Part shown: one piece after another, positions 17,396 through 62,500 of the stretch | How the letters are laid out: each line of letters opens with the position of its first letter | Position numbering within the stretch: position 1 is the stretch's first letter | Assembly: GCA_014193395.1 (NCBI GenBank) | Contig: BJHT01000005.1 | Coordinates: 1-64,000 of the forward strand | From: Verrucomicrobiota bacterium | GTDB lineage: Bacteria; Verrucomicrobiota; Verrucomicrobiia; Limisphaerales; BJHT01 | Reading direction: 5' to 3' | DNA: 64,000 nucleotides | Position numbers and translations under genes: made by a program | The notes under the pieces: generated by a model | Told to the model about the DNA's origin: nothing | The model's database searches: none | The model's input: the letters and a program-made list of their open reading frames with translations, nothing else

Positions 17396-20062
17396 CTATT
17401 CCAGCAGCAGCATCCGGGTCTGCACGGCTTCTAGCTCCAGAGTTACTTCGCGCACATCTTTGCCAAGCACCACGCCGGTCATGGCGTCGCGCACGGTGGC
17501 GGGGCGGGGCAGGCGCAGGGTGCGTTTGCCGGCCTTGACGGCGTGGAGGGAGACGAAGCTGTCGCTGGCGTAGATGACGTCGTTTTCTTCGGACCAGATG
17601 TTGCAGCCGGCCTGGCGCGCGGTGGCGCGGAGCAGTTCGGCGGGCAGTGGAATGGCGCAGGACCAGAGGACGGCGTAATCGTCCGCGCCGCGCGGGCCGG
17701 GCTGGCCGTTGCCCGCGCCGCCGCGGCCGTTTTCGCGTAGGAAGAGGCCGGGGCGGTTGATGAAGAAGGAGGTGTTCGACCAACCCAGCGACGCGGCTTT
17801 GGCCTCGGCGACGGCTTTGTCGGCGGGGATGAGGGTCGGGCCGTAGGCATAGGTGTCGCCGTAGATATGACCGGCGGACAGTTCCCGGACGATAGGATGA
17901 TTTTGTCCGCGCGGTTCCTGCACGATGACACGGCGCTGGGTGGTGCGCGGGACGAGTTCCATTTTCACACCGAGGAGGCGGGTGGCGGGTTCGGCAGTGA
18001 GATGCTGTCCGTCGGTGATGCCGGTGCCGGGACCGAAAATAGCGACGTGACCATCTCGCAATACTTTCTTGCGCAGCAAAGCCATCACGTCGTCATCCAC
18101 GCGGAATAGGTTGGGGAAGAAGAATACCTTGTAGTTTGGGAAGTTATCTTTGCGCAGGTCGCTAAGGAGATAGATGCGGTAAGGAACGCCGCAGTGCGCG
18201 AGGCCCTGGATACGCTGCCAGATGACGGCGAGCGACTGGAAACCGCTGGTGAAGTCCTCATACATCGGGCTGGTGTCATCGATGATGAAGGCGATGGCGT
18301 CGGTAGTCTCGCGGTGTGGCGCGGCGGCAACGCGGCCGAGCATGGGTATGATGCGGGCGATGACTTCCTGGATTTTAGGATCGTGAAAATAGGAGGAGCC
18401 GACATTGCACCAATAGGAGTGGAAATTGCGCGAGAGAGCCATGCCTTCGTTGCGGAGGAGGCCGGCTTCCAACTCGATGGGAGTGAGGAAGGCACCTTGA
18501 TTTTCCGCGCCCTGACCTACCCACGAGCGGGCGTCATTTTCAGCGAGCAGAGTCTTGCCCCGGAGGACCATCGAGTCGGCGGGGCCTTCGGGTTCCCATG
18601 CGAAGCCGACGGTGCGCGCGTGGTAGTCGGCGGGCGTCCAGAGTGCGTCGAGCGTGGGATCGTCGAGGAGTTCGCCCTGATCCCACGAGCCGGAGAGTTG
18701 GAGGACGTTGGGGAAATCGCGCGGTTCGCCGACGCCATCGAACGCGGAGAGAATCTGCCAGCCCATCAGGGGTTGCTTGGCGACATCGGCGGCGACGAGG
18801 CGCGTGCGGCCGAGCGCGGCGGACTGTTCCTTGAGCGCGGTGGTGATGGTGCGGAGCCAGCGGAGGAACATCGCGCGCTCGAAGCGGCAGTAGTCGAGTT
18901 CGCGGGCGGCATCGACGGGTTCGATCCAATGGAAGAGGCCGCGGTCGCGCGTGCCGGAATTGGACTCGAGCCGGCCGGCACCGAAGGGCTTGCCACCGAC
19001 GGTCGGTGTGCCGGTGGTGCGTTTCAGTTTCCACTCTTGGTCGCGCGGGACGGCGACGGTGTCGAAGGTGACGTTGGTATTGCCCCACGCCTTGCGCAGT
19101 GCGGCTTCGTCGGGGTATTGGCGTTTCACCCAAAGGCGAAACTCCTGCTGATTGACCGCCGAGCAATCGAACATCTTGCCGGTGAGCGTGAGCGGCAGGA
19201 GGCCCTCGCCGTAGGGCAGCGCAAGATAGCCGATGATGCGGTCACTCCACGGCTGCGCTTCGCAGTAGGAGACGACGTTGCGCAGCGAGCGGTTGAGGCC
19301 GTCGAGATACGAGGGCGAGGAGATGCTGGCGTGGCGGAGGCGGTTGCCTTCGTCGTCGGTCTGGACTTCGCCGGGGCGTTTTTTCGTCCACGCCAGCGGG
19401 GCGGAGACCGTGGCGCGAACATAGAAACGCGCGGTGGGACAGCGTTCGATAATGAAGCGGGCCTGGTTGGTGACGGAGCCGGTGACGGCGGGTTCGGCGG
19501 TCGGGAACACGCCGTCGTCGGGCCAGAAGGGCGAGTCGAAATAATCCGAGGGCGGATGGCGGATGTTGAGGAAAAAGACCGTCTCGCCGCTGCGGACGAA
19601 TTCATTGATGCGCTCCTTCCACTTGTCGGTCATGGGCGCGATGTAGTCGTTGTAGGCGTGGAGCGGGAGGGGCTTGCCGTTTTGCAGGATGAAGGCGCGG
19701 CCGCGGTCGGTTTTCAGCAGCGGTGCGGGAGCGGCGTCGGCGGACGGGATGAGGGCGAGCAAGAGGGTGAGGAGGAGGGAGAGGGACGCTATAAGATGTG
19801 CAGGTAGGCGGAGGCGGCGCGAGATGGGAAGCGCCGCAACCCCCTGGGGAGCGCACGCCGCTGGCGTGCTGTTTTCGGCGGCTCGCCGAAAACCTCGTGC
19901 CACTAACTTCTCCCCGCCGAAGTGATGGCAGAACGGGGAACGACGGTTTGGGCGGGCCGCCCAAACCGGCACGCGGGCCGCGTGCGCTCCCCATTCGGTT
20001 GCGGCGCTCGGAATCAACGGACGGTGGGCGTTTTGCATAGGAAACGGATAGCGGTACGGCAT
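17396..20062 (-). CDS. GH42-like (beta-galactosidase superfamily) secreted glycoside hydrolase
   Basis: NQQEFRLWVKRQYPDEAALRKAWGNTNVTFDTVAVP and TIM-barrel context; start uncertain because an inserted repeat lies at the 5' end (see findings). Confidence 0.6.
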   Translation of the reverse strand: MPYRYPFPMQNAHRPLIPSAATEWGAHAARVPVWAARPNRRSPFCHHFGGEKLVARGFRRAAENSTPAACAPQGVAALPISRRLRLPAHLIASLSLLLTLLLALIPSADAAPAPLLKTDRGRAFILQNGKPLPLHAYNDYIAPMTDKWKERINEFVRSGETVFFLNIRHPPSDYFDSPFWPDDGVFPTAEPAVTGSVTNQARFIIERCPTARFYVRATVSAPLAWTKKRPGEVQTDDEGNRLRHASISSPSYLDGLNRSLRNVVSYCEAQPWSDRIIGYLALPYGEGLLPLTLTGKMFDCSAVNQQEFRLWVKRQYPDEAALRKAWGNTNVTFDTVAVPRDQEWKLKRTTGTPTVGGKPFGAGRLESNSGTRDRGLFHWIEPVDAARELDYCRFERAMFLRWLRTITTALKEQSAALGRTRLVAADVAKQPLMGWQILSAFDGVGEPRDFPNVLQLSGSWDQGELLDDPTLDALWTPADYHARTVGFAWEPEGPADSMVLRGKTLLAENDARSWVGQGAENQGAFLTPIELEAGLLRNEGMALSRNFHSYWCNVGSSYFHDPKIQEVIARIIPMLGRVAAAPHRETTDAIAFIIDDTSPMYEDFTSGFQSLAVIWQRIQGLAHCGVPYRIYLLSDLRKDNFPNYKVFFFPNLFRVDDDVMALLRKKVLRDGHVAIFGPGTGITDGQHLTAEPATRLLGVKMELVPRTTQRRVIVQEPRGQNHPIVRELSAGHIYGDTYAYGPTLIPADKAVAEAKAASLGWSNTSFFINRPGLFLRENGRGGAGNGQPGPRGADDYAVLWSCAIPLPAELLRATARQAGCNIWSEENDVIYASDSFVSLHAVKAGKRTLRLPRPATVRDAMTGVVLGKDVREVTLELEAVQTRMLLLE
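19831..20007. repeat. 177-bp MITE/REPIN-like palindromic element inside the 5' end of the GH42-like ORF
   Basis: Outer arms gcgccgcaaccccctggggagcgcacgc (19831-19858) and gcgtgcgctccccattcggttgcggcgc (19980-20007); internal ttttcggcggctcgccgaaaa and ggtttgggcgggccgcccaaacc hairpins. Confidence 0.8.
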
Positions 20063-20076
20063 TGGCGAAGACAGCT

Positions 20077-23000
20077 TCAGAACGGTTTTCCACCAATCGT
20101 CTGCCCCCTGGCCTTGAGCGTGCCGAGTGCGCCGAGGGTGAGCTGGGCTTTGCCGCCGCGGATTTGCGCCACGCCGACGGTGCCTCCGAATTCGAGGTCG
20201 TCCTGCTTGAAACTGAACGGCGTGGCGCTGAGAAAAATCCAGTCGTCGCCTTTGGGCGTCTGCACGCGCAGGACGCGGCCCTCGGCGAGCGTGGTCACGT
20301 TCATGGGCGCCTCGGTTTTCAGGCGGGGAAGCAGCAGCGCGGTCACGACGGGCGCGCCGGTCATCGGCACGATGATGCCGTTCTGCGTGTAGGGAAACGT
20401 CACTTGCGCGCCGTCGGGACGCAGGGCTGCGCCGGCACGGCGAGAGATGGCTTCCTGCTTCAATGCGGGTTTTTGCGGTAGGGCGAAGAACACATCCATG
20501 TCCACGTCTTCGAGGCCGGTGACGCCGACGCTGCGTTCGTGCAGGTCGAGTTTGGCGGACGAGGTCCAGAGCCGCCAGATGGCCGAGGGGTCGGGCTGTT
20601 TCAAGGTGTCGCACAACACGGCGTAGTTGGGGCCGAGCGGGTCGGTGTCTTTCACGAAGAGAATCTGCCGGGTCCAGGCTTCCTTCACGCCGCTCACGTA
20701 GTCGGCGTGCGGTGCGGGGGCGAATCCATCGACAGTCATCATGTCCGAGGCCGCGGAGGCGGCGGTGACCATGCTGTGATCCTCGGCGGGCGCGCGGCCG
20801 TAGTAGCCGAAATCATCGCAGAGAATGCGGCCCTTGCCCCAGAAGGTGATCGAGCCGGAATCGTAGTCGTAATGCTGACGATGCTTGCCGACGATGAAGT
20901 GGAGCGCGGTCTCGCGCGGGCCGGGGAAGCCGGTGCGCAGGATCGCGCCGGTCTGCGGGAACAGCTCGCTGCCGTAGGCCGGGACCTCCTCGGGAAGCGT
21001 GGCGTCGAGCAAGAGGGCGCGATAACCCGTGAGCGACGGATAGCTGCCGCCGATGCCCGGCTCCGGGAAGGAGCGCTGCTGGCGGAACATCCACTGCATC
21101 TGCCGCGCGAACGCCGGATCCTTCTCGCGCCACAGGCGGGCAATGATTCCGAACTCGCCGGTCGGCTCGATCATGTAGGTGTTGCCGATGGGCGGGAGAT
21201 GGCGGAAGCCGCCGAAGCGCGAATCCGGCGGCGTCGAGATTTTCGCGAGCCATTCCATGACTTTCTTCATCTTCGGATGGAAGAGGTCGCCGCCGAGGCC
21301 GGCGTTGTGGGCCATGAGCGAGACGCCGAGGAGCGCGTCGTAGGAGACGAGCGCGTAGTGCGGGGCCTCGAGCCAGCCGCCGTTGTCATCGGACCACGTT
21401 TCGAGTTCCTCGTGGGCCTCGCGCTGGGCATCGGCAATCCAAGCTTTGGCCTCCGGATGCGTGGGAAGAAAACAAGCGGCGGTGGCTTTGTAGCCGTAGT
21501 GGGAGGTCGTCATGTTCGGATTCGCCGCGTAGCCGCGCGCGGGCGACCAGACATCGGCGCGGTTCAACGTGTAGCCGATAAACGCCGCCTGCGCCTTGAT
21601 GCGGCGGCGCACTTCGGGGGCGATGTGCCCGCCATCCATCACCGCGTCCGCGAGCAGCAGGCTCACGGCGGTCCCCTGTCGCATGTGGGGCGCGAAGCCC
21701 GGCGTCGCGAGGCGGACCTGGTTGAAATAAGTGTCCACCACGGCCTGCACGCGCGCGGCGGCGAGGTCGGACAGATATTTTCCCAGCGCGGCGTCGCCCG
21801 TGACGAGATAGGCCTCGATGCTCGCGCTCATCGTGTGGTCGTAGAGCGGCGTGGTGGTGAGCTGCTGTTTTTTGATCTTCTGGCGCAGGGCCTCGGCGTC
21901 GGCGTTTTTGCGCAGGGCGGCGACATCGGCGGCGTTGAGAATCAGGCGCGGATGTTGGCCCGGCTCGTTGGTGACTTCGAACTGATAGTCCTTCATGAGA
22001 TCGAGCGGGAAGTCGCCGTGCTTGATGAGCAAGTGCTGCGGCAACGGCGCCGAGTGGCGCTCGATCGTCTGCGGTGACTTGGTGACATCGGCGAGGCTGC
22101 GGTCGCGGTCGGGCGTGCCGAGCATCCAGAGCCGGCGGCCCCAGAGCAGCGGGAAGTCCGCGCCGAACCCGCCGCCCGCCGTGGTGAAATGCAGCATCGC
22201 GGGCGACTGCGGCAGCTTTGCTTCGAGGCGACTCACATCGAGCCAGCTTCCGGCGCGGATGGCGCCGACCATGAGCAGGTCGGCGGTGGTTTCGCTGTAA
22301 AGGGAGAACCAGTTGCCCTGCCGCGCCCGATGATTCCAATGCAGCCACGGCTCGAGCACAAAGGCAGGTTGTCCGTCCGCGGCGGGACCGAGCGGCCACG
22401 TTTCCTGCTGGCCGAAATTCGAGCCGGCGATGGCTTTCTGATTGCGATACAACATCCGCGTCGGCTGCCAACCCGGCGCGAGCGAGAGGTGCCAGACGGC
22501 GGCGGCGGGGACGTCGCACGTCTCGTCCACCAACACGACGGGTTCCCCGCGGACGATGCGAAACCGCAGCCGCCACGAGCCATTCTCACCGAAGCGATAG
22601 GTCGCGGTGGCCTCGAGAAACACCGGCCCCTGCGCGGTGATCTGCGCTTCGTGTGCCGTCGGGCGCGGGCCGGTTTTCATTTCGCCGCCGCCTGCCCACG
22701 CGCCCGAGCTGAGGCGCACGCCGGCGAACGGCCCGTCGCTCAGGGCCTGCGCGCCGCGATGAAGACGCAGGGCGATCTGGGGATTTCCGAGTTCGACGAG
22801 AGTTGCGGATTCGGTGACGCGCAGCTCGTTGTTCGGCGCGGGCGCGGGCGCGGCCGCGGCGCGCGTCACGAGGGAATAAGTGGCCTTGGTGAACTCCGGG
22901 ACGTTGGCGAGGAAGGCCACGCTCGGCTTGGCGATCGGCGATTGTTCGGCGGTGGCCCACTGGTGCGGCGCGGGCTGGCCGTCGGGGCCGAGCAGAGCGA

Positions 23001-23178
23001 GATCCTTGCGGCCCCAGACGGCGGCGTCCACGGGGTAGAAGACGAGTTCGTTGGTCCACGCGCGCTTGAGATGGTCCTCGAAGGAAAAGGTCGCGACCGC
23101 CTGCTGCGCGCGGGCAGCGCCCGGCAGCGTGAGGATGAGGGCGAGCAGGGCGGCGTGGAGCGGGACGAGGATTCTCAT
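20077..23178 (-). CDS. Heparinase II/III-like polysaccharide lyase candidate, paralog A
   Basis: HYDYDSGSITFWGKGRILCDDFGYYGRAPAEDHSMV; signal peptide MRILVPLHAALLALILTLPGAARA; strong similarity to the next gene. Confidence 0.6.
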   Translation of the reverse strand: MRILVPLHAALLALILTLPGAARAQQAVATFSFEDHLKRAWTNELVFYPVDAAVWGRKDLALLGPDGQPAPHQWATAEQSPIAKPSVAFLANVPEFTKATYSLVTRAAAAPAPAPNNELRVTESATLVELGNPQIALRLHRGAQALSDGPFAGVRLSSGAWAGGGEMKTGPRPTAHEAQITAQGPVFLEATATYRFGENGSWRLRFRIVRGEPVVLVDETCDVPAAAVWHLSLAPGWQPTRMLYRNQKAIAGSNFGQQETWPLGPAADGQPAFVLEPWLHWNHRARQGNWFSLYSETTADLLMVGAIRAGSWLDVSRLEAKLPQSPAMLHFTTAGGGFGADFPLLWGRRLWMLGTPDRDRSLADVTKSPQTIERHSAPLPQHLLIKHGDFPLDLMKDYQFEVTNEPGQHPRLILNAADVAALRKNADAEALRQKIKKQQLTTTPLYDHTMSASIEAYLVTGDAALGKYLSDLAAARVQAVVDTYFNQVRLATPGFAPHMRQGTAVSLLLADAVMDGGHIAPEVRRRIKAQAAFIGYTLNRADVWSPARGYAANPNMTTSHYGYKATAACFLPTHPEAKAWIADAQREAHEELETWSDDNGGWLEAPHYALVSYDALLGVSLMAHNAGLGGDLFHPKMKKVMEWLAKISTPPDSRFGGFRHLPPIGNTYMIEPTGEFGIIARLWREKDPAFARQMQWMFRQQRSFPEPGIGGSYPSLTGYRALLLDATLPEEVPAYGSELFPQTGAILRTGFPGPRETALHFIVGKHRQHYDYDSGSITFWGKGRILCDDFGYYGRAPAEDHSMVTAASAASDMMTVDGFAPAPHADYVSGVKEAWTRQILFVKDTDPLGPNYAVLCDTLKQPDPSAIWRLWTSSAKLDLHERSVGVTGLEDVDMDVFFALPQKPALKQEAISRRAGAALRPDGAQVTFPYTQNGIIVPMTGAPVVTALLLPRLKTEAPMNVTTLAEGRVLRVQTPKGDDWIFLSATPFSFKQDDLEFGGTVGVAQIRGGKAQLTLGALGTLKARGQTIGGKPF

Positions 23179-44567: not shown

Positions 44568-47500
44568 TCAGAGTTTGACCACCCGGTAGAAGCGGCGGCG
44601 CATCGACGGGGACGAAGGATCGGTGAAGGTGGACTGGCCGTTGAGGTTGTTGGTCACGGTGGCCACCACGGTCCAGGTCACGAAGTCGGTCGTGGCTTCA
44701 ATGCGGTAGTTGCCGAGCGGCAGGCCCTGAAGGTTGAGCTGGAATGGCCCGGTGCGGGTGGCGGTGAGGGGCGCGAGGGCGGCGACGTTCGGGGTGCCGT
44801 TCAGGCGGGCGACGTGGTTGCGGGGGACGCCGTCGAAGTGCGTGAAGTCGCCGCCGAGGAAGACCTTGCCATCCAGGCCGAGTGTCACCGAGTAAACGAT
44901 GCCGTCGGCACCGGCACCGGGGTCGAAGGTCAGGTCCACCAGGCCATCGGGAGTCAACCGGGCGATGCGCGACCGGGGCACGCCGGTGACGCGGCTGAAG
45001 TCGCCGGCGACGATGATCTGACCGTTGGGCTGGAGCACCGCCGTGAGGACCGAGCCGTCAATCGATGGGGCAAAGCCGGTGTCCAATGCACCGTTGGTTT
45101 CGAAGCGGGCAACGAAGCTGCGGACGGCGAGATTGGTGATCGGGAAGGGCGACGGCGGCAGCGACTGCCCGAAGACACCCACCGCGATGATCCGGCCATC
45201 GAAGGGTTGGATCGTCACCCCCAGCGCGGCCGCATCCAGCACGGTGCCGGGGTTGAAGTTGGTGTCGAGCGAGCCGTTGGCGTTCAGCCGGGCGAGGTAG
45301 TTGCGGTTGGTGCCGTTGTAGCGGGTGAACGCGCCGGCGATGACGATCTTCCCGTCCGGCTGCACCGCGATGTCGAACACGGACTGATCGGCGGCGGCGA
45401 GGAACCGGTTCGGCCCGTTGGAGGCCCCGAAGGTCGTGTCGAACGAGCCGCTGGAGTTGAGCCGCGCGATGTTGGTCAGCGCGTAGCGGTTGGTGATCGC
45501 GACGGAATTGCTCACCACGACGTTGGTGACCACCATGCTGAACATGCCGCCAATAAGCACCTTGCCGTCGGGCTGCCGCGCCAGGGCGATCACGGGGCCG
45601 CCCGCGCCGGTGTTCGGGGTGAAGCTCGTGTCGAGCGAGCCATCCGCGTTCAGGCGGGCGACGTGATTACGGATGTAGCCGGTCTGGGAGACGTAGGTGA
45701 AGTCGCCGCCGATGAGCACCTTGCCGTCGGCCTGGAGGACCATCGCGCGCACGGCGTCGTTCGGTCCGGCTCCGGGGTTGAAGGTGGCATCCAGCGAGCC
45801 ATCGCTGTTCAACCGGGCGATGTTGTTCAGCACCGGGTAATTCGTGACCGGGACGCCGCCGACCACCACGACGTTGGTGAAGACGACGCGGAAGGAACCG
45901 CCGACGAGCAGTTTTCCATCCGGCTGCGCGACGACCGAGAAGACCGAGCCGTTGGTGATCCACGTCGTGGGATCGAAGCGGTAGTCGTTCCCCGACGGCG
46001 TGTCGTTGTCGAGGATGCTGACGGTCGCATTGCTGAACGCGCCCAGTTTCGCCCCGGTGGTCGGGTCAATGATGCGGAGGGTGACCGTGAAGGTTTCGGT
46101 CGGTTCGATCAGGCGGTCGTCGATGATCGGGACCACGATGAAGCTCGCGAGCACGCCCGGCGCGAAGACGAGCGTGCCGCTGGCCGCAACATAATCGGAG
46201 CCGCCGATGGCGGTGCCATCCACCGTTTGATAAGTGAGGCTGACGGTCCCGGCGGCTCCGGAGGTGCGCACGACGGTGAGCACGGCATTGGTCGCGTCTT
46301 CGAGCACGATGTACGCGGCGGCGGTGAAGGCGAAGGTGCCGGCGTTGTCGGAAATGGTGAGGGTCGCCGTCGTGATCGGCCCGAGGGTGACGCCCGCGCT
46401 GGGCAGCGAAAGGATGAGCGGCACGGTCTCAGAACCCTCGACGACATTGTCGAGCACGACGGTCACATTGAAAACATTGGTGAGAATGCCGGGGCCGAAG
46501 ACGACCGGACCGTTGGTGGCCACGTAATCCGCGCCCGCGGTGGCGGTGCCGACGCCGGTGGAGACATTCACGGACACGGCGCGATTCGTGGCCCCGAGGC
46601 GCACGAGGGAGATGTTCGCGATGCCGGCGGCCTCGCTCACCGCGTAGTTGGCGAGCGCAAAGCCGACCTGCGCGTCGTTGTCGAGGATGGTCACGGTGGC
46701 GTTGCTGAGCGCGCCAAGGAAGGCGAGGCCGGCGGGCTGCGGGTTGCTCAACTGCACGGTGAAGGTCTCGTCGCTCTCGGGCAACGCATCATCGCTGATG
46801 ACCACGCTGAAGGACTTGGAGGTATCACCGGCGTCGAAACGCAAAACACCGTTGGTCGCCTGATAGTCGCTCGAACTCAGCGCCGTACCGTCCATCGTCT
46901 GGAAAACCACCGAGTTCGTTCCCGTCAAAGAGCCCGTCCGTAACACGGTGATGATCGCCGAACCGGCGGCCTCGCCGACCGAGAAGTTCGCCGCCGAGAA
47001 GAGGAAGCCGCTGTCGTTGTCGAGAATGGTCAACACGGCGGTGTTGGTGACGCCCAACTGCACGCTGTTGGTCGGGAACGGATTGAGCAGGCGCAGATTC
47101 ACGGTGCGACTGCCATCCACGCGGGTGTTGCCGAGGACCGGCACGGGGACGTCGCGGAAGATTTCGCCGGGGCCAAACGCAAATGAATTGGTGAAGCCGG
47201 TGTAGTCGATGCCGTTGGTGCCCGATCCGTCGCGGGTGGCGACCTGGAAGGTGACCGCCGAGTTCGTGTTGCCAGTCCGCACGACGAGCACATGGCCGTT
47301 GCCCGCGTCCTCGTCCACGGCGAAGCGGTTGGTGCTGAAGGCGAGGACGACGTCATTGTCCACGATGGTGAGAACCGCACTGGACAAGGCTCCGAGCGCC
47401 GAGCCGAGGCTCGGGTTGGAGAGCGTCAGGCGGATCTGTTCGTCCACCTCGAGCAGCGAATCGTCAATGATGGGCACCAGGAAGTTCGTGGTCTGCACCT

Positions 47501-50500
47501 TCGGAACATTGCCCGGACCGGCGTCAGGGAACACGAGCGAACCGTTGGTGACGAGGTAGTCAAGGCCCGCGACCGCAGTGATGTCCGAGACCGCGAAGGC
47601 CACCGTAGCCCGCCCGGCATTCAAGCCCGTGCGGCGGACGGTGATGACGGCGTTGGTCTCGCCTTCGCCGACGCGGAAGGCGTCCGATGTAAATTCGAAA
47701 CGTCCGCCGAAGACCACGTCGTCCACGATGGTGAGCGTCGCTGCCGCCAGCCCGAGCGCCGCGCCGCCGGTCGGATTCGCGAGCGTTAGGCTCAGCGGTT
47801 CGTCGCCTTCGATCAATTGATCGGCGAAAATCGGCACGGTGAAGGTCTTCACGATTTCGCCATCGGCGAACGCCAGCGTGCCCTGCGTGAGGAGGAAGTC
47901 CACATTCGGCCCGCCGACCACGCCGCCGATGGCGCCGTTGGGCACCGCGACCGTGGCGTAATTCACCGAGACCGCGCCCGAACGGCCGAGCGTGCGCACG
48001 ACCGTGATGGTCGCGGACCCGCCGGTCTCGAGCACCGAGAACGCGTTGGTGGCGAAGCCGAGCGTGCCGCTGCCGCCGTCGTTATCAATGATGACGAGGG
48101 TCGCGTTGGTGAACTGGCCCGGAGCGGCGAAGCTGCCGAATGCGGCGGGAATGGACAGCGTGAGGGGAATCGTCTCGTTGCCCTCGACCAAGCCGTCGTC
48201 GGTGATCGACACGGTGAAGGTGGCGTTGCTCTGGCCGCTGGTGAACGAGACCGTGGTCACAACCGCCGTGAAATCGGTCCCGGCGAGGGCGGTGCCGTTG
48301 GTGCCGGTGGCGACATCGACGGTCAGGTTTTCGACCACGCCGCCGGTGCGAACGACGGTGATGACGGCGTTGCCGACGTTCTCGGCGACGTTGTAAACCG
48401 CGGCGCTGAAGCTCACGAGGCAGTCCTTTTCCTGAATCGAAACCGTGGTGTCCGTAATGGCGTCGAGGACCGCGCCGCCGCCCGCACTGCTCAGGTTCAG
48501 CACAATGGTCTGGTCGGGCCGGATGAGGTGGTCGTCGAGCAGCCGGATCGCAAAATCGGCGGTGGCCTGGCCCTCGGCGAAGACGAGGATGTTGGTGGTG
48601 AGCGGGACGTAATTAATGTTCGGAACCGCCGTCCCGCCGGTGACGTTCAGCGCGACGGTGACCTGGCCGAACGTGCCGCCCGAGCGGGTGACGGTGACCA
48701 CCGCGTTCGAGGCGCTCTCGCTGACCTGATAGAGCGGCGCGCTGAACGCCAGCGTGCCGCTGCCGACATTGTCGCCGCCGAACAGCCGCGCGAGGTAGTT
48801 GTTCGTCGCACCGTTGAACCGGGTGAAAGCGCCGCCCAGCAGAATTTTCCCGTCGCCCTGCAGGGCGAGGGAGGTGACGAGATTGTTCGCACCCAAGCCC
48901 ACATTTAGCGACGCGTCGAGCGAACCATCCGCATTCAGGCGGGCGATGCGGCTGCGACCGATGCTGTTCACGTTCGCAAAAGAACCGCCGAGGAGCACCT
49001 TGCCATCCGGCTGCACGGCGACGGCGGAGACGGAATCATCCGCACCGGTGCCGGCGAAGAACGTGGTGTCGAGCGAGCCGTCGGCATTGAGCCGCACGAC
49101 GCCGCCCATGTTGGTCTGGAGGCCCGGCCCGCCGGCAGCGAGGAACTGGCCACCGACGAGCACCTTGCCATCCGTCTGAATCGCGACGGAGTACACCGAG
49201 CCGGTGATCGACAGGCCGAACGGAACGAAGCTCGCATCGAGCGAGCCGTCGGTGTTGAGGCGGGCGAGGTGATTCCAATTGCTCAGGCTGTTCACCGAGG
49301 TGAAGTCGCCGCCGATGATGACCTTGCCATCGTTCTGAATCGCGACCGCGCGCACCGGTCCGTCGGGACCGACCTGCGGATCGAAGCTGGCATCAACGCC
49401 GCCGGTGGCTGTCAGGCGCGCCACGAAACTGCGATTGGTGGTGTTCACGGTCGTGAAGGTGCCGCCAATCACGACGCGGCCGTCGGCCTGCACGGCGACG
49501 GCGTAAACGCCATTGTTGGGACCGGCCAGCGAGTTCGTGAACGAGGCATCGACCGCGCCGTTGACATCCAGCCGTGCGACGTGGTTCAGCGCGCGTCCGC
49601 CGATGGAATTGAAGAAGCCGGCCACGACCACCTGGCCCGCGTAGAAGCCGTTGGTGTGCGGTGCAACCGCGCGAATCGAGGCCACGCCGGACGCGAACGA
49701 AACCGCCCCCGCGTTGAAGCTTTGGTCCAGCGTGCCATCGTCATTCACCCGCGCCACGCGGGAACGAGTGATGCCGTCGAAGGAATTGAACTCACCGCCG
49801 ATGATCAACTGCCCGTTCCCTTGCAGGCCGAGCGAGTAAACGATCGCGTCCGGCCCGAGGCCGTTGGTGTAGGAGGAATCAATCGATCCGGCCGCGCCTT
49901 CGTCGTCGGCGATCCGCACCAGCGCGTTGGTCAGGCCCGGGACCGCGCCGACGAAGCCAGAGAGGCGGACCTGGAAGAAACGCGAGCCGTCCAGAATCGC
50001 ATTGTCGAGGAGCGGCACCGCGAAGGTCTGCGTGGTCTGGCCGTTGGTGAACGTCAGCACGCCGTTCGTCGCCGTGTAGTGGCTACCCGCGAACGCGGTG
50101 GCATCAGCAGTGTTGAAGCTCACCGACACAGGCCCGGTGATGCCATTGGTCCGCACGACGGTGACGGTGGCGTTAGTGCCGTTCTCGACGGCGGCGAACA
50201 CCGTCTGCGCAAACCCGAGCGCGCCCGGCAGGGCGTCCTCGTTGGTGATCGTGATGAAGGCACGCCCCGGCGTGCCAACGCTCGCGCCACCCGTGACATT
50301 CGTCAGCACGACCTCGAGCGCCCGCGAGCCGTCCACGAGTGCGTTGTTGAGCAACGGCACCGCAATGAAGCGGCTGCTCCCGTCGAGATTCCCCCACACC
50401 AGAATGCCGCTCACAGGGACGTAGTCGTTGGTGGTCGCAACGGTTTCGTTGGTCGTCGGCGTCGCGCCGGCGAGCGTCGTGAAAAACACCGTCACCGCGT

Positions 50501-53500
50501 TGGTCAGGCCGCCGATGCGCCGGACTTCAAGCACCGCGTTGCCCGCCGCTTCGCTCACCACGTAGTTCGTGGCCGTGAAGACCAGGCTGCCGAAGCTCAA
50601 CTGGTTGTTGTTCACGATGGTCAGGATCGAACGGTTGGTCGCGCCGAGCACCGCACCGCCGCTCGGGTTGGAGAGGACCAGATTCACGAATTCATTCGTC
50701 TCGACCAGCGCGTCCAGAATGACGGGCACCAGGAAACTCTTCACCGTTTCCCCGTCGGCGAACGAGATCACGCCCGACGAGCTGGTGTAATCCAGACCCG
50801 CCAGCGCCGAGCCGTCCGCCGTCGCATACTGCACCGAGACCAAGCCCAACGAACCGCCGCTGCGCACCAGCGTGATGACCGCGTCGCCCACTGCTTCGTC
50901 CACCACGAAATTGGTGCTCGCGAAGTTCAGCGCGCCCGCCGAGTTGAGGCTCTCGATGATCGTCAGCGTGGCGTTGGTCAGCGTACCCAGCGTGACGAAA
51001 TTGGTCGGCACCGCGTTGCTCAACACGAGGCCGACAGTCAGGTTCCCCAGCACCAGCCCATCGTCGAACACTCCCACCGCCACAGTCATCTCGTTGGTCC
51101 CCGCCGGGAAGGTCACAACCTGGGTGGTCGGCTGATAGTTCACCCCGGCCACCGCGGTGCCGTTGGTGGTCGTCGCAAAATTCACCGACACCGCGCCCAC
51201 CAGGCCGCCACTGCGCACCAGCGTGATCAGCGCGTTGGTCGTGCTCTCGCCGACGCTGTAGCTCGCCGTGGCGAAACTGATCAGGCTGTCGTCATCCAGA
51301 ATCGTCAGCACTGCCGTCGGCGGCACTTCCAGCGCGGCCCCGCCGGTCACGCTGGTCAACGCCAAGCCCACGGTCCGGTCGCCCCGGTTGGTGAAATCAT
51401 TGAACACCGGCACCAGGAAGCTGCCCACCGTCACGCCGGGCGCGAAGGTCAGCACGCCGTTGGTGGCCCGATAGTCCACGCCCGCCACCGCGGTGCCGTT
51501 GGTCGTCGTCGCGTAGCCCACCGTCACCACACCGCTCAGGCCGCCCGCGCGCACCACGGTGATCACCGCGTTGGTCCCGCTCTCCGTCACCGCATAAGCC
51601 GGCGCGGAGAAGGCCAGCACGCCCGCCCCGAGATTCTCGCCGCCGTGGAGGCGCACGAAGTGATTGGCCGTCGTCCCGTTGAAATTGGTGAACGCCCCGC
51701 CCGCCAGAATCTTCCCGTCAAACTGCAACGCCAGCGCCGCGATGTAGTCATTCGCCCCGGAGCCGAAGTTGCAGGTCACATCCACCGTGCCGTTGGCTTC
51801 CAGGCGGACGATCCGGTTTTCCGGCAGACCATTGAACGTGGTGAACGCCCCGCCCACCACCACGCGGCCGTCGGGCTGCACCGCCAGCGCGCTCACGTAG
51901 TCATTGCGCGCCACGAACGGATTAAAGCCGCCATCGAGCACTCCGTTCGCGTCGAGCCGCACGAGGTTCGTATGCACCACCCCGTTGGTCGCCACGAACG
52001 CGCCGCCGACCAGCAGCCGGCCGTCGCGTTGCAGCACCAGCGTGTACACCGCGCCATTGGTAATCCAGCCGCCGCCGAGGAACGTGCTGTCAAACGAGCC
52101 GTCCGCATTCAACCGCGCCAATCGGCTGCTCGCGAATCCGTCCACCGTGGTGAACTCGCCGCCGATAATCGCGCGGCCATCTGGTTGCAACACCAGCGCG
52201 CGCACCGCGCCGTTCGGGCCGAGGCCGCGCGAGAAGCCCGTGTCCAGCGAACCGTCCGCATTCAGGCGCGCGATGAAATTGCGGTTGGTCCCGCTGACCC
52301 GCGTGAACAGGCCGCCCAGCACGACGCGGCCGTCATTCTGCACCGCCACCGCGTTCACGAGGTTGTTCACGCTCGCGACGAAATTCGTGTCCACCGTGCC
52401 GTCTGTGTTGACCCGCGCCACGTTGGTCCGCGCGGCCCCGCCCACCGACGTGAAGAGACCGCCGAAGACGGCCTTGCCCGTGAAGAAGCCGTTGGTGATG
52501 ACCAGCGAAACCGAGCGCACCGACGCGTTGGAACCGGTGAAGCCAATCGCGCCGACATCGAACCCAGCGTCGAGCGAGCCGTCGGCATTCAGCCGCACCA
52601 CGTTGGCGCGGTTGGTGCCGTTGAAGGCCGTGAAATCGCCCGCCACGTAGGCCTGGCTGTTGGTCGTGACCGCGAGGGAATAGACCGTGCCATTGAAGCC
52701 GGTGCCCAGCGCATACAGGCCGTCCACCGACCCGGCCGGGCCTTCGTCGTCGCCGATTCGCACCAGGGAATTGGTCAGGCCCGGGACCGCGCCGCCGGCG
52801 AAACCCGAGAGCACGACGCCGAAGAAGCGCGTGCCATCCTGCAGCGCGTTGTCGAGCACCGGCACGGTGAAGGTCTGATTCGTCGCGCCATTCGTGAAGA
52901 CCAGGAAGCCGTTGGTCGCGAGATAATCGCGGCCATTCACCGCCGTGCCGTCCACCGTGGCGAAGCTGACCCCGACGATGCCGTTGATTCCGTTGGTGCG
53001 CACCACCGTGATCAGCGCGTTGGTGGCGTTCTCCGTCACGTTGAACACCACCTGCTCAAATCCGAGCGCGCCCGCCAGGAAATCATCGTTGGTGATGGTG
53101 ATGATCGTGCTGCCCGGCGTGCCGATGGACGCGCCGCCGACCACGTTGCGCAACACCACTTCCACCGTGCGATCCGCGTCGGCGAGGTTGTTGTTCGTAA
53201 TCGCGACGCGGATGAAACGGCTGCCGCCGTCGAGATTGCCCCAGAGCAGGTTCCCGCTCACCGGCCCGTAATCATTGGTCGTCGCCGTGCCGTTCGTGGT
53301 GGTCGTGTAGAACACCGCGATGCCGTTGGTGCGGCCGCCGATGCGCTGCACTTCCAAAAGCACTTCGCCCGCCGCCTCGCTCACCACGTAATTCGTCGCG
53401 GAGAAAACCAGCGTGCCGAAGATCAACTGGTTGTTGTTCACGATCGTCACCACCGCCCGGTTGGTCGCCCCGAGCAGCGCGCCGCCGGCCGGGTTGGTGA

Positions 53501-56500
53501 GGGACAGGTTCAAGAACTCATTCGGCTCGATGAGCGCATCGAGAATCACGGGCACCACGAACGTCTTCGCCGTTTCCCCGTCAGCGAACGACAACACGCC
53601 CGAGACGCCGGTGAAGTCGAGGCCCGTCTGCGCCGTGCCGTCCGCCGTCGCATACTGCACGGAGATCGAACCGAGCGAACCAGCGCTGCGGACCACCGTG
53701 ATCACCGCGTTGCCCACCGTTTCGTCCACCACGAAATTCGCGCTCGCGAAGTTCAGCACCCCCGCGGCGTTGCGGCTCTCGATGATCGTCAGCATCGCGT
53801 TCGTCACCGCGCCCAGCGTGACAAAATTCGTCGGCACCGCGTTGCTCAGCGACAGGCCAACCGTGAGGTTGCCCAGCACCAGGCCGTCATCCAGCACGCC
53901 GACCGCCACGGTCACCACGTTGCTTCCAGCGGGGAAGGTCACCACCTGGTTGGTCGGCACGAAGTTCACTCCGGCCACCGCGGTGCCGTTGGTGGTCGTC
54001 GCAAAATTCACCGACACCGCGCCCACGAGGCCGCCGCTGCGCGTGAGCGTGATCACCGCGTTGGTCGCGCCTTCGCCGACGCTGTAATTGGCCGACACGA
54101 AACTGATTGCGCTGTCGTCCTCGAGGATCGTCACCACCGCGGTCGTCGGCACGGCCAACGCGGCCCCGCCGGTCACGCCGCTCAACGCCACCTCCACCGT
54201 CCGGTTGCTCGTCACCGAGCGATTGTCGATCAGCGGCAACACGATGTTGGTGGTCATCACGCCGGGCGCCAGCGTCAGCACGCCGGAGACGGCCTGATAA
54301 TCCACGCCCGCCACCGCGGTGCCGTTGGTGGTCGTCGCATACGTCACCGTCACCACATTGCTCAGCCCGCCGGTCCGCACCACCGTGAGCACCGCATTGG
54401 TCGCGTTCTCCGAGACCGTGTAGCCGGCTGCGCCAAACAGGAGCAAGCCCGCGCCCCGGTTCTCGCCGCCCGTGAGCCGCGCATAGTGATTGACCGCGAC
54501 GCCGTTGAAATTGGTGAACGCGCCGCCGATGAGGATCTCGCCATCCGGCTGCACGGCCACGGCCGCGAGATAGTCGTTCGCGCCGCCGCCGAAGTTGATG
54601 CTGTAGTCCACCGCGCCATCCGGCTGCAACCGGACGATCCGGTTTTCCGGCAGGCCGTTGAACATGGTAAATGCGCCGCCCACCACGATCCGGCCGTTCC
54701 GTTGCAAGGCCAGCGCGCCCACGAATTCGTTGGGGCCGGTGCCGGGATTGAAGCTCAGGTCGACCGTGCCGTCGCCGTTCAACCGCATCAGATTCGTGTG
54801 CGCCACGCCGTTCGTCGCAACGAACGCGCCGCCGACCAGGATGCGTCCGTCCGGCTGCCGCAGCAACGCCTGCACGGAACCACTCGCCACCCAACTGCTG
54901 CCCGCGAACGTCGGGTCGAGCGTCCCGTCCGCATTCAGCCGCGCAATCCGGCTGGCCGGCGCGCCGGCGAAGGAAGTGAACTCACCCGCGATGAGCAGCT
55001 TGCCGTCGGGTTGCAGCGCCAGCGCGCGCACAGCGCCGTCCGGCCCGGTCCCGTTCGCGAAGCCCGCGTCCAGCGAGCCATCCAGATTCAAGCGCGCGAC
55101 AAAGTTCTGGCTGATGCCGTTCACCCGAGTAAACAGGCCGCCCAGCACCACCCGGCCGTCCGGCTGCACGAGTACCGCGTTGACCAGATTGTCCGTGCCC
55201 GCCACGAAATTTGTGTCCACCGAGCCGTTCGGATTTACCCGCGCCACGTTGGTCCGTCCGACGCCGCCGAGCGAAGTGAAGACCCCGCCGAACACCACCT
55301 TGCTCGCGGTAAACCCGTCCGGCGGATATTCCGCCACCGAGCGCACCGCCGCGTTGGAACCGGTAAAGCCGACCGCGCCGAGGTTGAACCCGCCATCCAG
55401 CGAACCGTCCGGCAGCAACCGCACCAAGCCCGCGCGGTTGGAGCCATTGAACGCCGTGAAGTCGCCGCCGACATACGCCAGATTGTTCGTCGTCACCGCC
55501 AGCGCATAGACCGTCGCGTTGAAGCCGCTTCCCAGCAGATACGAAAGATCGACCGACCCGGCCGAGCCTTCGTCATCGGCGATCCGCACCGACGCATTGG
55601 TCAGGCCGCCCGTCGCGCCGCCGGTGAACCCGGAGAGCCGCACGCCGAAGAACCGCGTGCCGTCCTGGTTCGCATTGTCCAGCAGCACCACCGCAAACGT
55701 CTGCGTGGTCTGACCGTTGGTGAACGTGAGCACGTTGTTGGTGGCCACGTAATCAATCCCCGCTCGCGCCGAGGCATCCACCGTGGTGAAGGTGGCCGTC
55801 ACAATTCCGAAGGAACCATTGGTCCGCACGACCGTCAGCAGCACCGTGCCGTTGGTCTCGGAAGCGCCCGTGACCAACTGGCTGAACCCGAGCGCGCCGG
55901 GATTGGTGAGGTCATCGTTGGTGATCGTGATGAGCGTCCGACCGGGCGCCGCGATGTCCGCGCCACCGGTTGCGTTGGACAACTCGACTTCCACGGTGCG
56001 GTCGCCGTCCGCGAACGGGTTGTTGAAGATCGGCACGCGGATGAAGCGATCGCCGCCCTGCAAATGCGCCCAGCTCAAGAGGCCGTTGGTTGCCGCGAAA
56101 TCCGCCGTCGGCGCGGTCCCGTTGGTCGTGGTCGTGTAGAACACCGACACGGCATTGGTGGTTCCGCCGATGCGCTGCACCGTCACCACCGCTTCGCCCG
56201 CGGCCTCGCTCACGAAGTAATTCGTCGCGGTAAAGACCAGGTTGCCGAACACCAGCAGATTGTTGTTCACAATCGTGAGAATCGCCTGGCTGGCCGCACC
56301 CAGCACCGTGCCGCCGCTGGGATTCAACAGCGTCAAGTGCAGGAACTCATTGGTTTCCGCCAACTGGTCCAAAATCACCGGAACCAAAAAGCTCTTGGCC
56401 AGCTCGCCGTCCGCAAACGACACCACGCCAGTCACGCTCCCGTAGTCCAAGCCCGCCAGCGCCGTGCCGTCGGTGGTCACAAATTGCACCGACACCAAGC

Positions 56501-59500
56501 CGAGCGAACCGCCGCTGCGCACCACGGTGATCACCGCGTTGCCCACCGCTTCATCGACCACAAAATTGGTGCTCGCGAAGTTCAGCACGCCCGCGCTGTT
56601 GAGACTCTCAACAATGGTCAGCGTCGCGTTCGTCACCACGTCGAGCCCGACGATGTTGGTCGGTCCCGCGTTGCTCAGCACCAAGCCGACGGTCAGGTTT
56701 CCGACGATCAGGCCGTCGTCGAGCACGCTCACCGCGACGGTCACCGTGTTGGTTCCCGGCGGGAAGACCACGAACCGGTTGGTCGGCAGATAATTCACTC
56801 CGGCCACCGCGGTGCCGTTGGTCGTCGTCGAAAAATTCACCGTCGCCAGGCCCACCGCGCCGCCGCTGCGCACCAGCGTGATCACGGCGTTGGTTGTGCT
56901 CTCGTCCACGCTGTAGGTCGCCGACGCGAAGCTGATCAGGCTGTCGTCCTCGAGGATCGCCAGCACCGCCACCGGCGGCACCTCGAACGCCGCGCCACCA
57001 GTCACGGCGGTCAAGGCCAGCCCGACCGTGCGATCGCCGCGGTTGGTCGAATCATTCAGCACCGGCACCAGGAAGCTCGCCGCCGCCACGCCGGGCGCGA
57101 AGTTCAGCACGCCGTTGGTCGCCACGTAGTCCACGCCCGCGACGGCCGTCCCGTTGTTCGTGGTCGTGAAGCTCGCCGTCACCGGGTTCGCCAGCCCGCC
57201 GTTGCGCAGCACCGTGATCACCGCGTTGGTCGCGCCCTCCGACACCAGGAACACCGGCGTCGCAAACGCCAGCACGCCCGACCCGAGGTTCTCACCGCCG
57301 AAAAGCCGCACGAAATGTCCCACCGTCGTCCCGTTGAAATCGGTGAACGCCCCGCCCGCCAGCAGCCGCCCGTCCGGCTGCACCGCCACCGCCGCCAGAT
57401 AATCACTCGCGCCCGCACCGAAGTTGATGCTCACGTCCACCGTGCCGTTGGTTGTCAGCCGCACGATGCGGTTCTCCGCCAAGCCATTGAACGTCGTGAA
57501 CGCGCCCCCGACCACCGCGCGCCCGTTGCCCTGCAACGCCAGCGCGCTTACGTAATCGTTCCGCTCCACGAACGGATTATAGGCGTCCTCGATCACGCCG
57601 CTGGCGGTCAATCGCACGAGGTTCGTATGCACCACGCCGTTGGTCGCGACGAATGCGCCGCCCGCCAAAATCCGCCCGTCGCGCTGCAGCGCCAGCGCGT
57701 ACACCGCGCCGTTCGTCAGCCATTTGCCCCCTTGGAATGTGGCGTCCAGCGACCCGTCCGTATTGAGCCGCGCCAGCCGGCTGGCGGCCACGCCGTTCAC
57801 CGCCGTGAACTCGCCGCCGATGATCGTCTTGCCATCCGGCTGCAGCACCAGCGCCCGCACCGCGCCGTTCGGCCCGAGGCCCGTCGCAAAGCCCGCGTCC
57901 AGCGTGCCGTCGAGATTGAGCCGCGCCACGAAGTTCCGCGTGACTCCATTCACCACCGTGAACTGCCCGCCCAGCACCACGCGGCCGTCGTTCTGCACCG
58001 CCGCCGCGTTCACCAGGTTGTTCACGTTCGCCACGAAATTCGTGTCCAGCGTCCCGTTCGCGTTGAGCCGCGCCACGTTCGTCCGCGCCACGCCGCCCAC
58101 CGTGTTGAACAAACCGCCGAACACCACCCGCCCGTCCGCCACGCCGTTCGTGCCCGCCAGCGCCACCGCCCGCACCGCCGCGTTCGTCCCCGACCGCACG
58201 ATCGCCGGCACCGCGAACCCCGCGTCCACCGCGCCGTCCGCCGTCAGCCGCACCAAAGGCGGATGGTTGGTCCCGTTGAAGGTCGTGTAGTCGCCGCCGA
58301 CATACGCCAGATTGTTCGTCGTCACCGCCAGCGCATAGACCGTCCCGTTGAAGCCGCTCCCCAGCAGATACGACGCATCCACCGAACCCGCCGCGCCTTC
58401 GTCATCGCCAATTCGCACCAGCGCCCCGGTCAAGCCCGGCAGCGCGCCGCCCGCGAGACCGAAGAGCTGCACCGCGAGGAACCGCGGGCCGTCCTGCACC
58501 ACGTTGTTGGTCAGCGGCACGCTGAAGGTCGCGTTCGTCGCGCCGTTGGTGAACACGAGGAAACCATTCGTCGCCACGTAATCGCGCCCCGCCACCGCCG
58601 TCACATCGAGCGTCGCAAAGCTCGCGCCCACGATCCCCAGCGTTCCATTCGTGCGCGTCACCGTGATCAGCGCGTTGGTCGCGTTCTCCGTCACGTTGAA
58701 CACCAGCTCGCTAAACCCGAGCGTCCCCGCCAGAAAATCATCGTTCGTGATCGTGATGAACGTGCTCCCCGGCGTCCCGATCGACGCGCCGCCGACCGCA
58801 TTGCGCAGCACCACTTCCACCGTGCGATCCGCGTCCGCGAAATTGTTGTTCGTCACTGCCACCCGAATGAACTGGCTGCCCCCATCCTGATCGGCCCAGA
58901 ACAAATTCCCGCTCACCGGCCCGTAATCATTGGTCGTCGCCGTGCCATTGGTCGTCGTCGTGTAGAACACCGCGACCGCACTGCTGCGCCCGCCGAGCCG
59001 CTGCACTTCGAGGATCACCTCGCCCGCTGCCTCGCTCACGACATAGTTCGTCGAAGAGAAAACGAGGCCGCCGAAAACCAACTGGTCATCATTCAGAATC
59101 TGCACCACCGCGCTGTCCTGGAAGCCCAGCCCCGCCCCGCCGGTGGGATTGGACACGGTCACGGTGAAGCTCAGATTCGTCGTGGACAGGCCATCCGAAA
59201 GGATCACGACTGGGAACGTCTTGGCCGGCTCGCTGTCGGCAAAGGCCAGCGTGCCGCTTGTCGCCACGTAGTTCACGCCCGCCAGGGCCGTGCCGTCGCC
59301 CGTGCTGAAATCCACCGTCACCACGCCCGCGTTGCCGTTGGTGCGAATCACCGTGATCGTCGCCACCGCGATGCTCTCGGACACATCGAACGTCGGCTGG
59401 CTGAAGCCCACGAGGCCGCGTCCGAATTCATTGTCCACAATGGTGAGCGTGGCGTTGGTCTGGCCGGTCAGGGTGATGGGCGTGCGCGCCGTCACGTTGG

Positions 59501-62500
59501 TCGCGCCGAACAGCGCCAGGTTGATCGTGCGGTTCGCATTGGTCAGCAGGTCATCAATGATCCCGACGGCGAACGTTTTGCCGCCCGTCTCGCCATTCGC
59601 CCACGTCAGCACGCCCGCCGCGTTGGTGTAGTTCGCGTTGCCCACCGGTCCCGCGCCCGGATACAGAATCGCCGTGCCGCCGGTGCTGGTGAGATACTGC
59701 ACCGACACCGAGCCGGCGGAACCGCCGAGGCGCTCGACGGTGATGAAAGCCCGCGCGCCGGGCACATTTTCAATCACGGAAAACGTGGGCGAACTGAAAT
59801 TCAGAACCGTGTCGTCATCGAGGATCGTGACGGTCGCCACAGCCGGCTGGCCCAGCACGGCCCCGCCCGTGCTGCCCAACGTCACCGTGAAGCTCCGGTC
59901 GCCGTCGCTGACGAGATTGTTCGTCACCGGCACCAGGATCGTGCGGAACAGCTCGGCGTCGCGGAAGACCAGCGGGCCGCTCGTCGCGGTGTAATCGACG
60001 CCGTTGGTCGCGGTCCCGTTGGCCGTGGCAAACGTCAGCGTCGCCGCCCCGGCGGCACCGTGAACGCGGCGCACGACCAGCGTGGCGTTGGTCGCGTTTT
60101 CCGAAACGGTGAAGCCCACGCTTAAGAACTGGAACTCTCCCGGTCCGAAGTTGTCGCCGCCGAGCAGGCGCGCGAGATGGTTGCGAGGCAGGCCGTCAAT
60201 CTGCGTGAACGCCCCGGCCACGTTGATCTGCTGGTCGGCCTGGATCGCCAGTGCGAACACGGGGGCGTTGGCGCCCAGCCCGAAATTCATGGTGGGGTCC
60301 ACCGCGCCGCTCGTAGTCAGGCGGGTGAGATATTGGCGGCCGAGGTTGTTGAAATTGGTGAACGAGCCGCCGACGAGGATGCGGTTGTCCGGGGCCGGCA
60401 GAAGGGCCAGCGCGAGCACGTCTTCATTCGCGCCGGTGCCGGGATTAAAAGAGCGGTCAGGCGTGCCGTCCGCATTCAAGCGTGCAATGTGATTCCAGTT
60501 CGTGCCACTGATGTTGGTGAAGGAACCGCCGACGAGCACCTTGCCATCGGGCTGCACCGTGATCGCCCGCACCGTGGCGTTCGCGCCGTTGGTGCCGGGG
60601 TCAAAGGTCAAATCCAGCGTGCCATTCGCGTTGAAGCGGGCGAGCCGCGCCCGATTGGTGTTGTTGACCAGCGTGAAGTCACCACCGATCAGCACCCGGC
60701 CATCCGGCTGCACGGCGACCGCGTACACCTGCCCGTTCACACCCGCGCCGACGTTGAAATTCGGATCGACCACGCCGTTGGTGGTGAGCACGACAAAGTT
60801 GGCACGCCCGACGCCATTGAACGTGGTGAACGAACCGCCCACCGCCAGGCGACCGTCCGTGCGCACCGCGACGGCGAACACCGGATTGTCCGGCCCCGAG
60901 CCGATGTTGAAGGTGGAATCCAGCGAGCCTTCCGCATTGAGCCGCGCGAGGTAACTGCGGTTGGCCCCGTTGAAGGCGGTAAACCTACCGCCCACCACGA
61001 GCTTCTGATCCGCCTGCAACGCGAGGGCCGTGATTTCCCCGTTGGCCGCGGTGCCCGGCTGGAACTCCACATCGATCCGCCCATCGGGATTCAGCCGCGC
61101 AATGCGGTTGATCGCCGTCCCGCCGTAGCCGGTGAATTGCCCCGCGATGACCAGCTTCCCGCCCGCCGCCAGCAGCAGCGCGTTGATCGGCGCGTTGGCG
61201 CCGACCGAGGTGTCGAACCCGGTGTTCAGCGCGCCCGCGTCCGCCGCCAGCGATTCGTCGTCGAAGATGGTCAGCGTGGCGTTGGTGAAGCGGCCGGGGG
61301 TGGCCTTGTTGAAATTGGAGAGGATCACCGAGAGCGTCCGGTTTGGTCCGACCAGAAGGTTGTCGATGATCGAAATCAGCAGGTTGGTCGAGGTCTGCCC
61401 GTCTTCGAACAGCAACGTGCCGGACAAGGCGTTGGACAGCGTGGTGAAATTCGTCACCAACTGCGCCGTACCGGGAACAATCAGATATTCCACCGCGACC
61501 TGCTCAGCGTCGCCGCCCACGCGGTCAATGCGGATGCTGGCCGTGCCGCCGTTTTCACTGATGAAATAACTCGCTGCCGAGAAGGTGAGCTGGCCGTAGG
61601 TGTTGGCATCGACAATCGACACCGTCGCGTTGCTGAGGTAGCCGAGCCGCGCGCCGCCCGCCACATTGGTCAGCCAGACCGTGAAGACTTCGGTCCCCTC
61701 GACCAAACGGTCCGCCGAAACGGGAATGGACACGGTCTGCGAATTCGTGGAGCCGGCCGGGAAAATCAGGTGCTGGTTCACCGGCGTGTAATCCAAGTTC
61801 GCCCGCGCCCGCCCGGGGGCCACCGGCCGAACGTCGCCGGTCTGCACATCGACCTCGACCTGGCCGACGCCGCCGCTCGTGCGCCGCACCACGACGCTGA
61901 CGAAACCGTTGGTCTCGCTGACGCTGAAATTGTTGGTGGTGAAACTCAGGCTGCCGAAACTGCCGGGGCCGGAATCGTTGTCCTGGATGAGCAGGACCGC
62001 GTTGGCGAGGCCGAGCGTCGCGCCGCCGGTCGGGTTGGCAAGCGTGAGCAGGACGGACTCCTCAAACTCGGGCGCGACGTCGTTGATGATCGGCACCGTG
62101 AACGTGCCCTTGGTCTGTCCCGAGATGAACGTCAGCGTGCCGCTGCGCGAGAGATAATCCACACCGGCGGTCGCCGTGCCGGGGGCGGTGGCGTATTGCA
62201 CCGACGCCACGCCGGTCGAACCGTTGGCGCGTTCGATGGTTATGGTGGCGTTGCCGACGGCTTCGCTGACCTCGAAAACCGGCCCGGCGAATCCAAACAC
62301 GCCGGCCGTAAAATCATCGTCGATGATCGTCACCAGCGCGCGGCGCTGAAAACCGGGCGCGGGTTGCGTGGTGGGCGCGGGCGTGCCGGAACGCGGGTTG
62401 GAGAGGACGACCTCGAAGGTGCGGTTCCCGTCCACGAGCGCGTTGTTCAAAATCGGAACGGCGAAGGTCTTGTTGGTCGCCAGCGATTCCTGATCGTTCC

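Follow-up and report, generated by a model that had tools for sequence, protein, structure and literature searches.

A multicopy palindromic repeat lies in frame ahead of the signal-peptide core of exported-protein genes in a Verrucomicrobiota genus

In the 64,000-nucleotide stretch of Verrucomicrobiota DNA that we analysed (hereafter the window; contig BJHT01000005.1, positions 1 to 64,000), a palindromic repeat lies in frame between the start codon of a gene for a GH42-like exported enzyme and the hydrophobic core of its signal peptide. The repeat belongs to a high-copy, mobile-looking family that takes the same position in other exported-protein genes, and we consider it likely that it is a translated but cleaved extension of the signal-peptide n-region, tolerated rather than functional. 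The genus was sampled by two genomes, both fragmented drafts: the one that contains the window (G000) and that of a congener (G001).

The host ORF occupies positions 17396–20038 of the minus strand and encodes 880 amino acids counted from the ATG at 20038, which lies shortly past the stop codon of the directly adjoining upstream gene on the same strand (20077–23178; 1033 aa, without a Pfam match). The GH42 profile PF02449 matched the ORF below the curated cut-off (E=0.0055; 16.5 bits versus a cut-off of 21). Since a five-sequence family profile matched structures of GH42-type beta-galactosidases (best 6y2k, E=8e-7; 1kwg, 3.7e-5), 'GH42-like' seems a fair label for what is a remote similarity. 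The signal core, LIASLSLLLTLLLALI (19748–19795, minus strand; residues 82–97 counted from ATG 20038), has a mean Kyte-Doolittle hydropathy of 2.7, and the ~82 residues before it are basic, with a net charge of +9. The initial annotation had pointed out that the 177 bp at 19831–20007 make exactly 59 codons without a stop on the minus strand, and that two ATGs (20062 and 20038) lie 5′ of the repeat and the hydrophobic core 3′ of it, with no ATG or GTG between; the sequence bears out both statements. Indeed, between the repeat and the core of this gene we found no in-frame ATG, GTG or TTG, the single TTG being inside the core itself.

The same annotation took all 177 bp for the palindromic element and gave it two internal hairpins. 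The inverted repeat is indeed strong and multicopy, but the repeat unit is 147 bp long (19846–19992, minus strand; codons 16–65 of the GH42-like ORF), beginning GGGGAGCGCACGC and ending GCGTGCGCTCCCC. Its ends are fixed by aligned copies, which terminate in GGGGAGC...GCTCCCC, and are defined also by head-to-tail copies, because these repeat at an exact 147-bp period (for example, on contigs C286 of G000 and C17 and C37 of G001). The extra length comes from local 11-bp arms, a locus-specific flanking inverted repeat outside the family unit (left arm GCGCCGCAACC, 19831–19841; right arm GGTTGCGGCGC, 19997–20007) that is missing in the congener. Instead of two hairpins there are two per half, four in all. 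Half-unit A, which comes first when the element is read in the direction of the gene, contains the GGGGAGCGCACGCGGCCCGCGTGC hairpin (19969–19992, minus strand), followed by an inner hairpin, CGGTTTGGGCGG / CCGCCCAAACCG (19944–19968, minus strand; inverted-repeat analysis I4). Half-unit B contains the GGGGAGCGCACGCCGCTGGCGTGC hairpin (19846–19869, plus strand) and an inner hairpin, GTTTTCGGCG / CGCCGAAAAC (19871–19893, minus strand), recognized from sequence and fold. The arms of the whole are 72 nt long and 81% complementary, giving the terminal inverted repeats by which MITEs are recognized, and the fold of the segment is much more stable than that of shuffled versions (z = -8.4 for RNA, -9.8 for DNA).

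A half-unit pattern matched 154 times in the genome of the window and 148 times in the congener, versus 0–1 times per strand for the reversed control pattern. The copy number is ~77 in the former, where half-units are mostly paired at a spacing of ~123 nt, as is typical of REP/REPIN high-copy palindromes, and is similar in the one congener. An Rfam scan of the window returned a tRNA alone and nothing for the repeat. Across the 126 distinct copies that we fetched and analysed (63 per genome), 78% of frames were open, versus 38% in shuffles. Stop-free reading is a family trait of the repeat and nothing special at the GH42-like locus, so that survival in frame without local adaptation is likely; we rejected the idea that a chance stop-free frame is a sign of adaptation, as most copies are open in four of six frames. 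No constant target-site duplication was seen at the flanks of the element, one empty site being too diverged to give exact junctions. Just 5′ of many copies (L117, L137, L233, L238, L239 and others) there is a motif near CCGAACTC, and just 3′ of them CGGGCTTCGCCCG; these flanking motifs are possibly part of a larger composite repeat. A composite cassette with its own start codon (ATGAAYCCGAACTC 5′ of the element) had one exact match per genome, and, given this single match, we regard a cassette that carries its own start as unproven.

Searching 146 related genomes, we found one close ortholog of the enzyme, 94% identical, in the congener (public contig record CAMAUZ010000015.1), and none beyond the genus, where the best match had ~38% identity. 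The repeat is present at the matching site of this ortholog: in both species the ATG is 46 nt from the element, the element is 147 nt long, no indel occurs before the signal core, and no stop interrupts the frame. The insertion thus predates the split of the species, and a recent, species-specific insertion, which we had considered, is rejected. The initial annotation proposed comparison with orthologs and a search for other copies as checks, and the two gave opposed answers, because the segment is present not only in an ortholog but also at dozens of unrelated loci; jointly they indicate an old, shared repeat insertion rather than ancestral coding sequence. The leader around the element is 22–33% diverged between the species. 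ATG 20038 (20036–20038, minus strand), which opens the conserved start MQN[A/D]HRPLI, is present in both, and ATG 20062 is ACG in the congener. The hydrophobic core has diverged and is still hydrophobic. In the mature domain the differences fall 27/14/155 at codon positions 1/2/3 (155 of 196 at position 3), with 148 synonymous versus 35 nonsynonymous codons; the mature enzyme is evidently under purifying selection and has been kept since the species split. The codon-position bias is absent in the leader and the repeat (2/4/4 before the element and 3/6/4 within it), and we therefore infer coding of the leader from its frame and starts, not from the synonymous rate.

The same layout, that is, an in-frame ATG 8–25 codons upstream, the repeat, and then the core of a signal peptide or prepilin, without any start codon from repeat to core, recurs at ~11 independent loci, all of them exported, lipoprotein or prepilin-like genes: the GH42-like gene itself (L001/L086), L118, L238/L151, L117/L214, L233/L110, L239, L137, L128, L192, L200 and L225. 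From our reading of their sequences we take the product of L118 to be a PQQ-like protein, that of L238/L151 a lipoprotein, that of L239 peptidase-like and that of L225 prepilin-like. Three more loci (L219/L217, L102/L129 and L013) are ambiguous, with a possible GTG or TTG after the repeat or with the upstream ATG absent. An in-frame ATG within 25 codons upstream was present in 11 of 14 such cases, versus a background of 19%. In contrast, none of the 12 non-exported genes that adjoin a copy has the layout, and all 12 have a start codon after the repeat; Fisher's test of exported versus non-exported genes gave p of about 0.004–0.008 on hand-made tallies, which were curated by eye and are approximate. 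Because some ten exported-protein genes besides the GH42-like one carry the repeat at the same position, leader peptides appear to be places where its insertion is tolerated. The first 70 copies mostly have coding sequence on one side or on neither; coding potential of the flanks was scored with a simple codon model trained on the genes of the window, and the gene calls rest on the same model. An automatic screen for gene bodies flagged two copies, L011 and L141, upstream of what is by our own reading presumably a uracil-DNA-glycosylase-like gene. Both were rejected as gene-body insertions, since the orthologous copies lie 5′ of the gene and a GTG follows the repeat. One copy in the congener (C2:43583–43731; L088) lies within the reading frame of a serine-recombinase-like gene, at its 3′ end.

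We looked up the orthologous sites of eight leader loci. One is empty: a gene of the window's own genome reads MTTSPARIFALFLLSLLLV..., where the congener has MTTTPPLPMILPNSDAR-[element]-...FVLPWLLLTLLTL (L137/L258), and from the ATG that matches the start of the filled gene the empty one encodes a normal-looking signal peptide, MTTSPARIFALFLLSLLLVTHPNAARA. Other sites are filled differently. The congener's ortholog of L128 shares the MKT...PLH start and then has a shorter in-frame insert of another kind; the orthologs of L225 and L192 have other, longer palindromic inserts, also open; the ortholog of L118 has another palindrome, in frame and followed by an additional ATG; and the ortholog of L239 has another insert plus a new downstream ATG. 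The sites orthologous to L013 and L143 were uninformative. At four leader loci shared by the species, the stretch from the ATG to the core has indels of 3 and 6 nt only, whereas of the 22 indels in control flanks, 18 have lengths not divisible by three. Taken together, the empty and alternative alleles and the indels show insertion between the native start and the core, tolerance of different inserts, and upkeep of the frame. Repeat-like in-frame inserts other than the 147-bp unit were seen where the sister species has the element (L253 in G000; L245, L247 and L242 in G001).

Of the three options raised by the initial annotation, the evidence most favours an N-terminal extension derived from the repeat. 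The element would be a non-autonomous copy of a multicopy two-REP palindrome (REP/TIR/MITE-like) that entered the GH42-like gene between start codon and core before the species and its congener separated. Since most units measure 147 bp, a length divisible by three, and most are stop-free, the gene would stay open and the repeat would be read through as ~49 extra codons of the n-region, translation from ATG 20038 giving the long basic stretch ahead of the core. The core would still direct export, and signal peptidase would presumably remove the extension along with the signal peptide; the insertion would be tolerated because the affected part of the protein is discarded. The n-regions of exported proteins would then act much like intergenic DNA toward repeats. 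A point against this reading is that an n-region of ~82 residues is unusually long.

The second option, a non-canonical start, would place the repeat in the 5′ UTR, with translation beginning after it (for example, at the ATC at 19825) or inside it, at the GTG in CGCGTGCCG. In its favour, many REPs that annotations place at N-termini are in fact extragenic, as argued by Di Nocera et al. (PMC3733652), and an in-frame GTG is present inside the repeat in both species. The ATC is an attractive start in the window's own sequence (ISRRLRLPAHL...), yet in the congener it falls in another frame, and there, too, no ATG, GTG or TTG occurs between repeat and core; the codons for MQNxHRPLI, 5′ of the repeat, are conserved, and ATG 20062 is not; and the native start of the sister locus L137/L258 lies 5′ of the insertion point. 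We regard a start after or inside the repeat as unlikely. A selected role of the repeat in the leader, either as an mRNA hairpin controlling translation or as a targeting extension, seems more doubtful still: species-specific occupancy, the empty allele and the unrelated repeats at the same place in orthologs speak against it, as do the use of both orientations and several frames and the many copies outside any leader, even though the fold is very stable, the predicted peptide is basic, the position is recurrent, and several insertions are kept in both species. That the insertion harms export and the gene is decaying, in line with the third option of impaired export, is very improbable. The leader is very long and, like the hydrophobic core, diverges fast, but the divergence of the mature domain since the insertion is mostly at third positions, and both species keep the frame, a hydrophobic core and a conserved enzyme.

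The classic in-frame palindromes are the Rickettsia palindromic elements (RPEs). As summarised in PMC3733652, these are read in frame within protein genes. The element resembles RPEs in this behaviour, if it is translated as we suppose, but its in-frame copies lie in leader peptides and those of RPEs in gene bodies; the comparison is of behaviour, not of sequence. Besides GTAG and CGTC REPs, Di Nocera et al. (2013, PMC3733652) described intragenic REPs, many of them in Opitutus terrae and many N-terminal, which they suspected to be possibly non-coding, and a Yersinia repeat unit lies in the predicted signal peptide of Y. pestis YPO1552 (Delihas 2007, PMC2759123). Such intragenic REPs (Opitutus terrae and others) and the enterobacterial RU, ERIC and YPAL elements (PMC2759123) are likewise in-frame palindromes, many of them N-terminal; here, however, the pattern is systematic and shared by the two species, and it includes an empty allele and alternative inserts. 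The element shares with REP/BIME/REPIN systems and their RAYT (TnpA-REP) the short high-copy palindromes, the two inverted hairpin units per element, the tandem arrays and, in relatives (G011, G027 and several others), half-units that flank RAYT-like genes. Unlike them, it has the terminus GGGGAGCGC in the copies inspected, in place of a GTAG (or CGTC) tag at the base of the stem, it has no repeat-flanked RAYT that we could find in its own genus, and it recurs in frame in signal peptides. TIR-associated transposases (TIRYT) have GGGGWSAS motifs (Di Nocera et al. 2013, PMC3733652). Long inverted repeats and a GGGG-type end ally the element with TIRs, GGGGAGCG fitting GGGGWSAS at seven of eight positions, a likeness drawn from the published motif and not from aligned sequences; association with a transposase is seen in relatives only. 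TIR families are 'moderately abundant' (PMC3733652), whereas the copy number of the element looks higher.

None of the 18 PF01797 (Y1 transposase) loci of the genus, nine in each genome, is flanked by the element, and the RAYTs of the genus were therefore rejected as its mobilizer; some of these loci carry their own, unrelated hairpins. Among relatives, G011 has a RAYT-like transposase bordered by half-copies inside thrS (L298/L303) and G027 has one inside alaS (L277/L311), each with its HUH motif intact. Both transposases are in frame, with synthetase domains on either side, and the bordering palindromes are in frame as well. A search of 320 genomes of the order yielded further members, and the RAYT-like Y1 (HUH) transposases inside thrS or alaS also include L304–L332 and L363–L372. 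In the 30 best loci, wherever synthetase sequence could be recognised next to the transposase, the two share a reading phase, and the insertion is at one thrS site or at two alaS sites; most of these loci show synthetase segments on both sides, and the rest reach the end of the contig or locus. Both alaS sites are filled in some genomes, and one case comes from a single-contig genome. More divergent Y1 transposases (L343–L362, from other genomes of the order) lie in frame inside PriA, DnaE, DinG-like helicase, ClpB and UDPGP ORFs, and also in type I restriction, N6-methylase and NOV_C helicase ORFs. The repeat family and thrS/alaS RAYTs co-occur (8/10 versus 15/48 genomes, p 0.006) among 58 genomes counted by hand, in a statistic that ignores phylogeny. 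Because half-copies flank RAYTs in relatives and the family co-occurs with them, a RAYT-type enzyme is likely the mobilizer of the repeat, and in the genus studied here it would be missing, lost or undetected. We saw no embedded RAYT in alaS of this genus, which has other in-frame inserts at the same site. These inserts, at alaS site 2, are ~60–80 aa long and lack a transposase (L336 in G000 and L337 in G001).

To our knowledge, in-frame palindromic insertions are known from RPEs and intragenic REPs, and the translation of N-terminal ones has long been open. What appears to be new is that leader peptides are occupied systematically, with filled, empty and alternative alleles, and that transposases occur in frame. 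The translation question is directly testable here, because loci of one kind are available with the element, without it and with another insert, and start codon, insert and signal core are all defined. Leader peptides in such genomes are prone to misannotation. HUH transposases in frame in aminoacyl-tRNA synthetases and replication proteins suggest an intein-like lifestyle of RAYTs, for which we found no describing paper in the literature library searched. A joint reading, to which we give slightly less than an even chance, is that the REP/RAYT system of the order is a translated transposon: its palindromes would be stop-free, its RAYTs would sit like inteins in frame in essential genes (thrS and two alaS sites; distantly, dnaE, priA, dinG and clpB), and transposase-free copies would settle in stretches that are discarded, above all n-regions.

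Other repeats were seen in the same DNA. A separate dispersed, partly inverted repeat (CCTTGAGCTTTGAGCTTTATTCTTGGAGCTT region) has dozens of matches in the genome of the window (C45:9193, C438, C155, C105 and others; L258–L272). Positions 44825–63950 of the window hold a very long run of related direct repeats, with ~150-nt units in a super-repeat of 2826–2829 nt, which are apparently giant repetitive protein genes.
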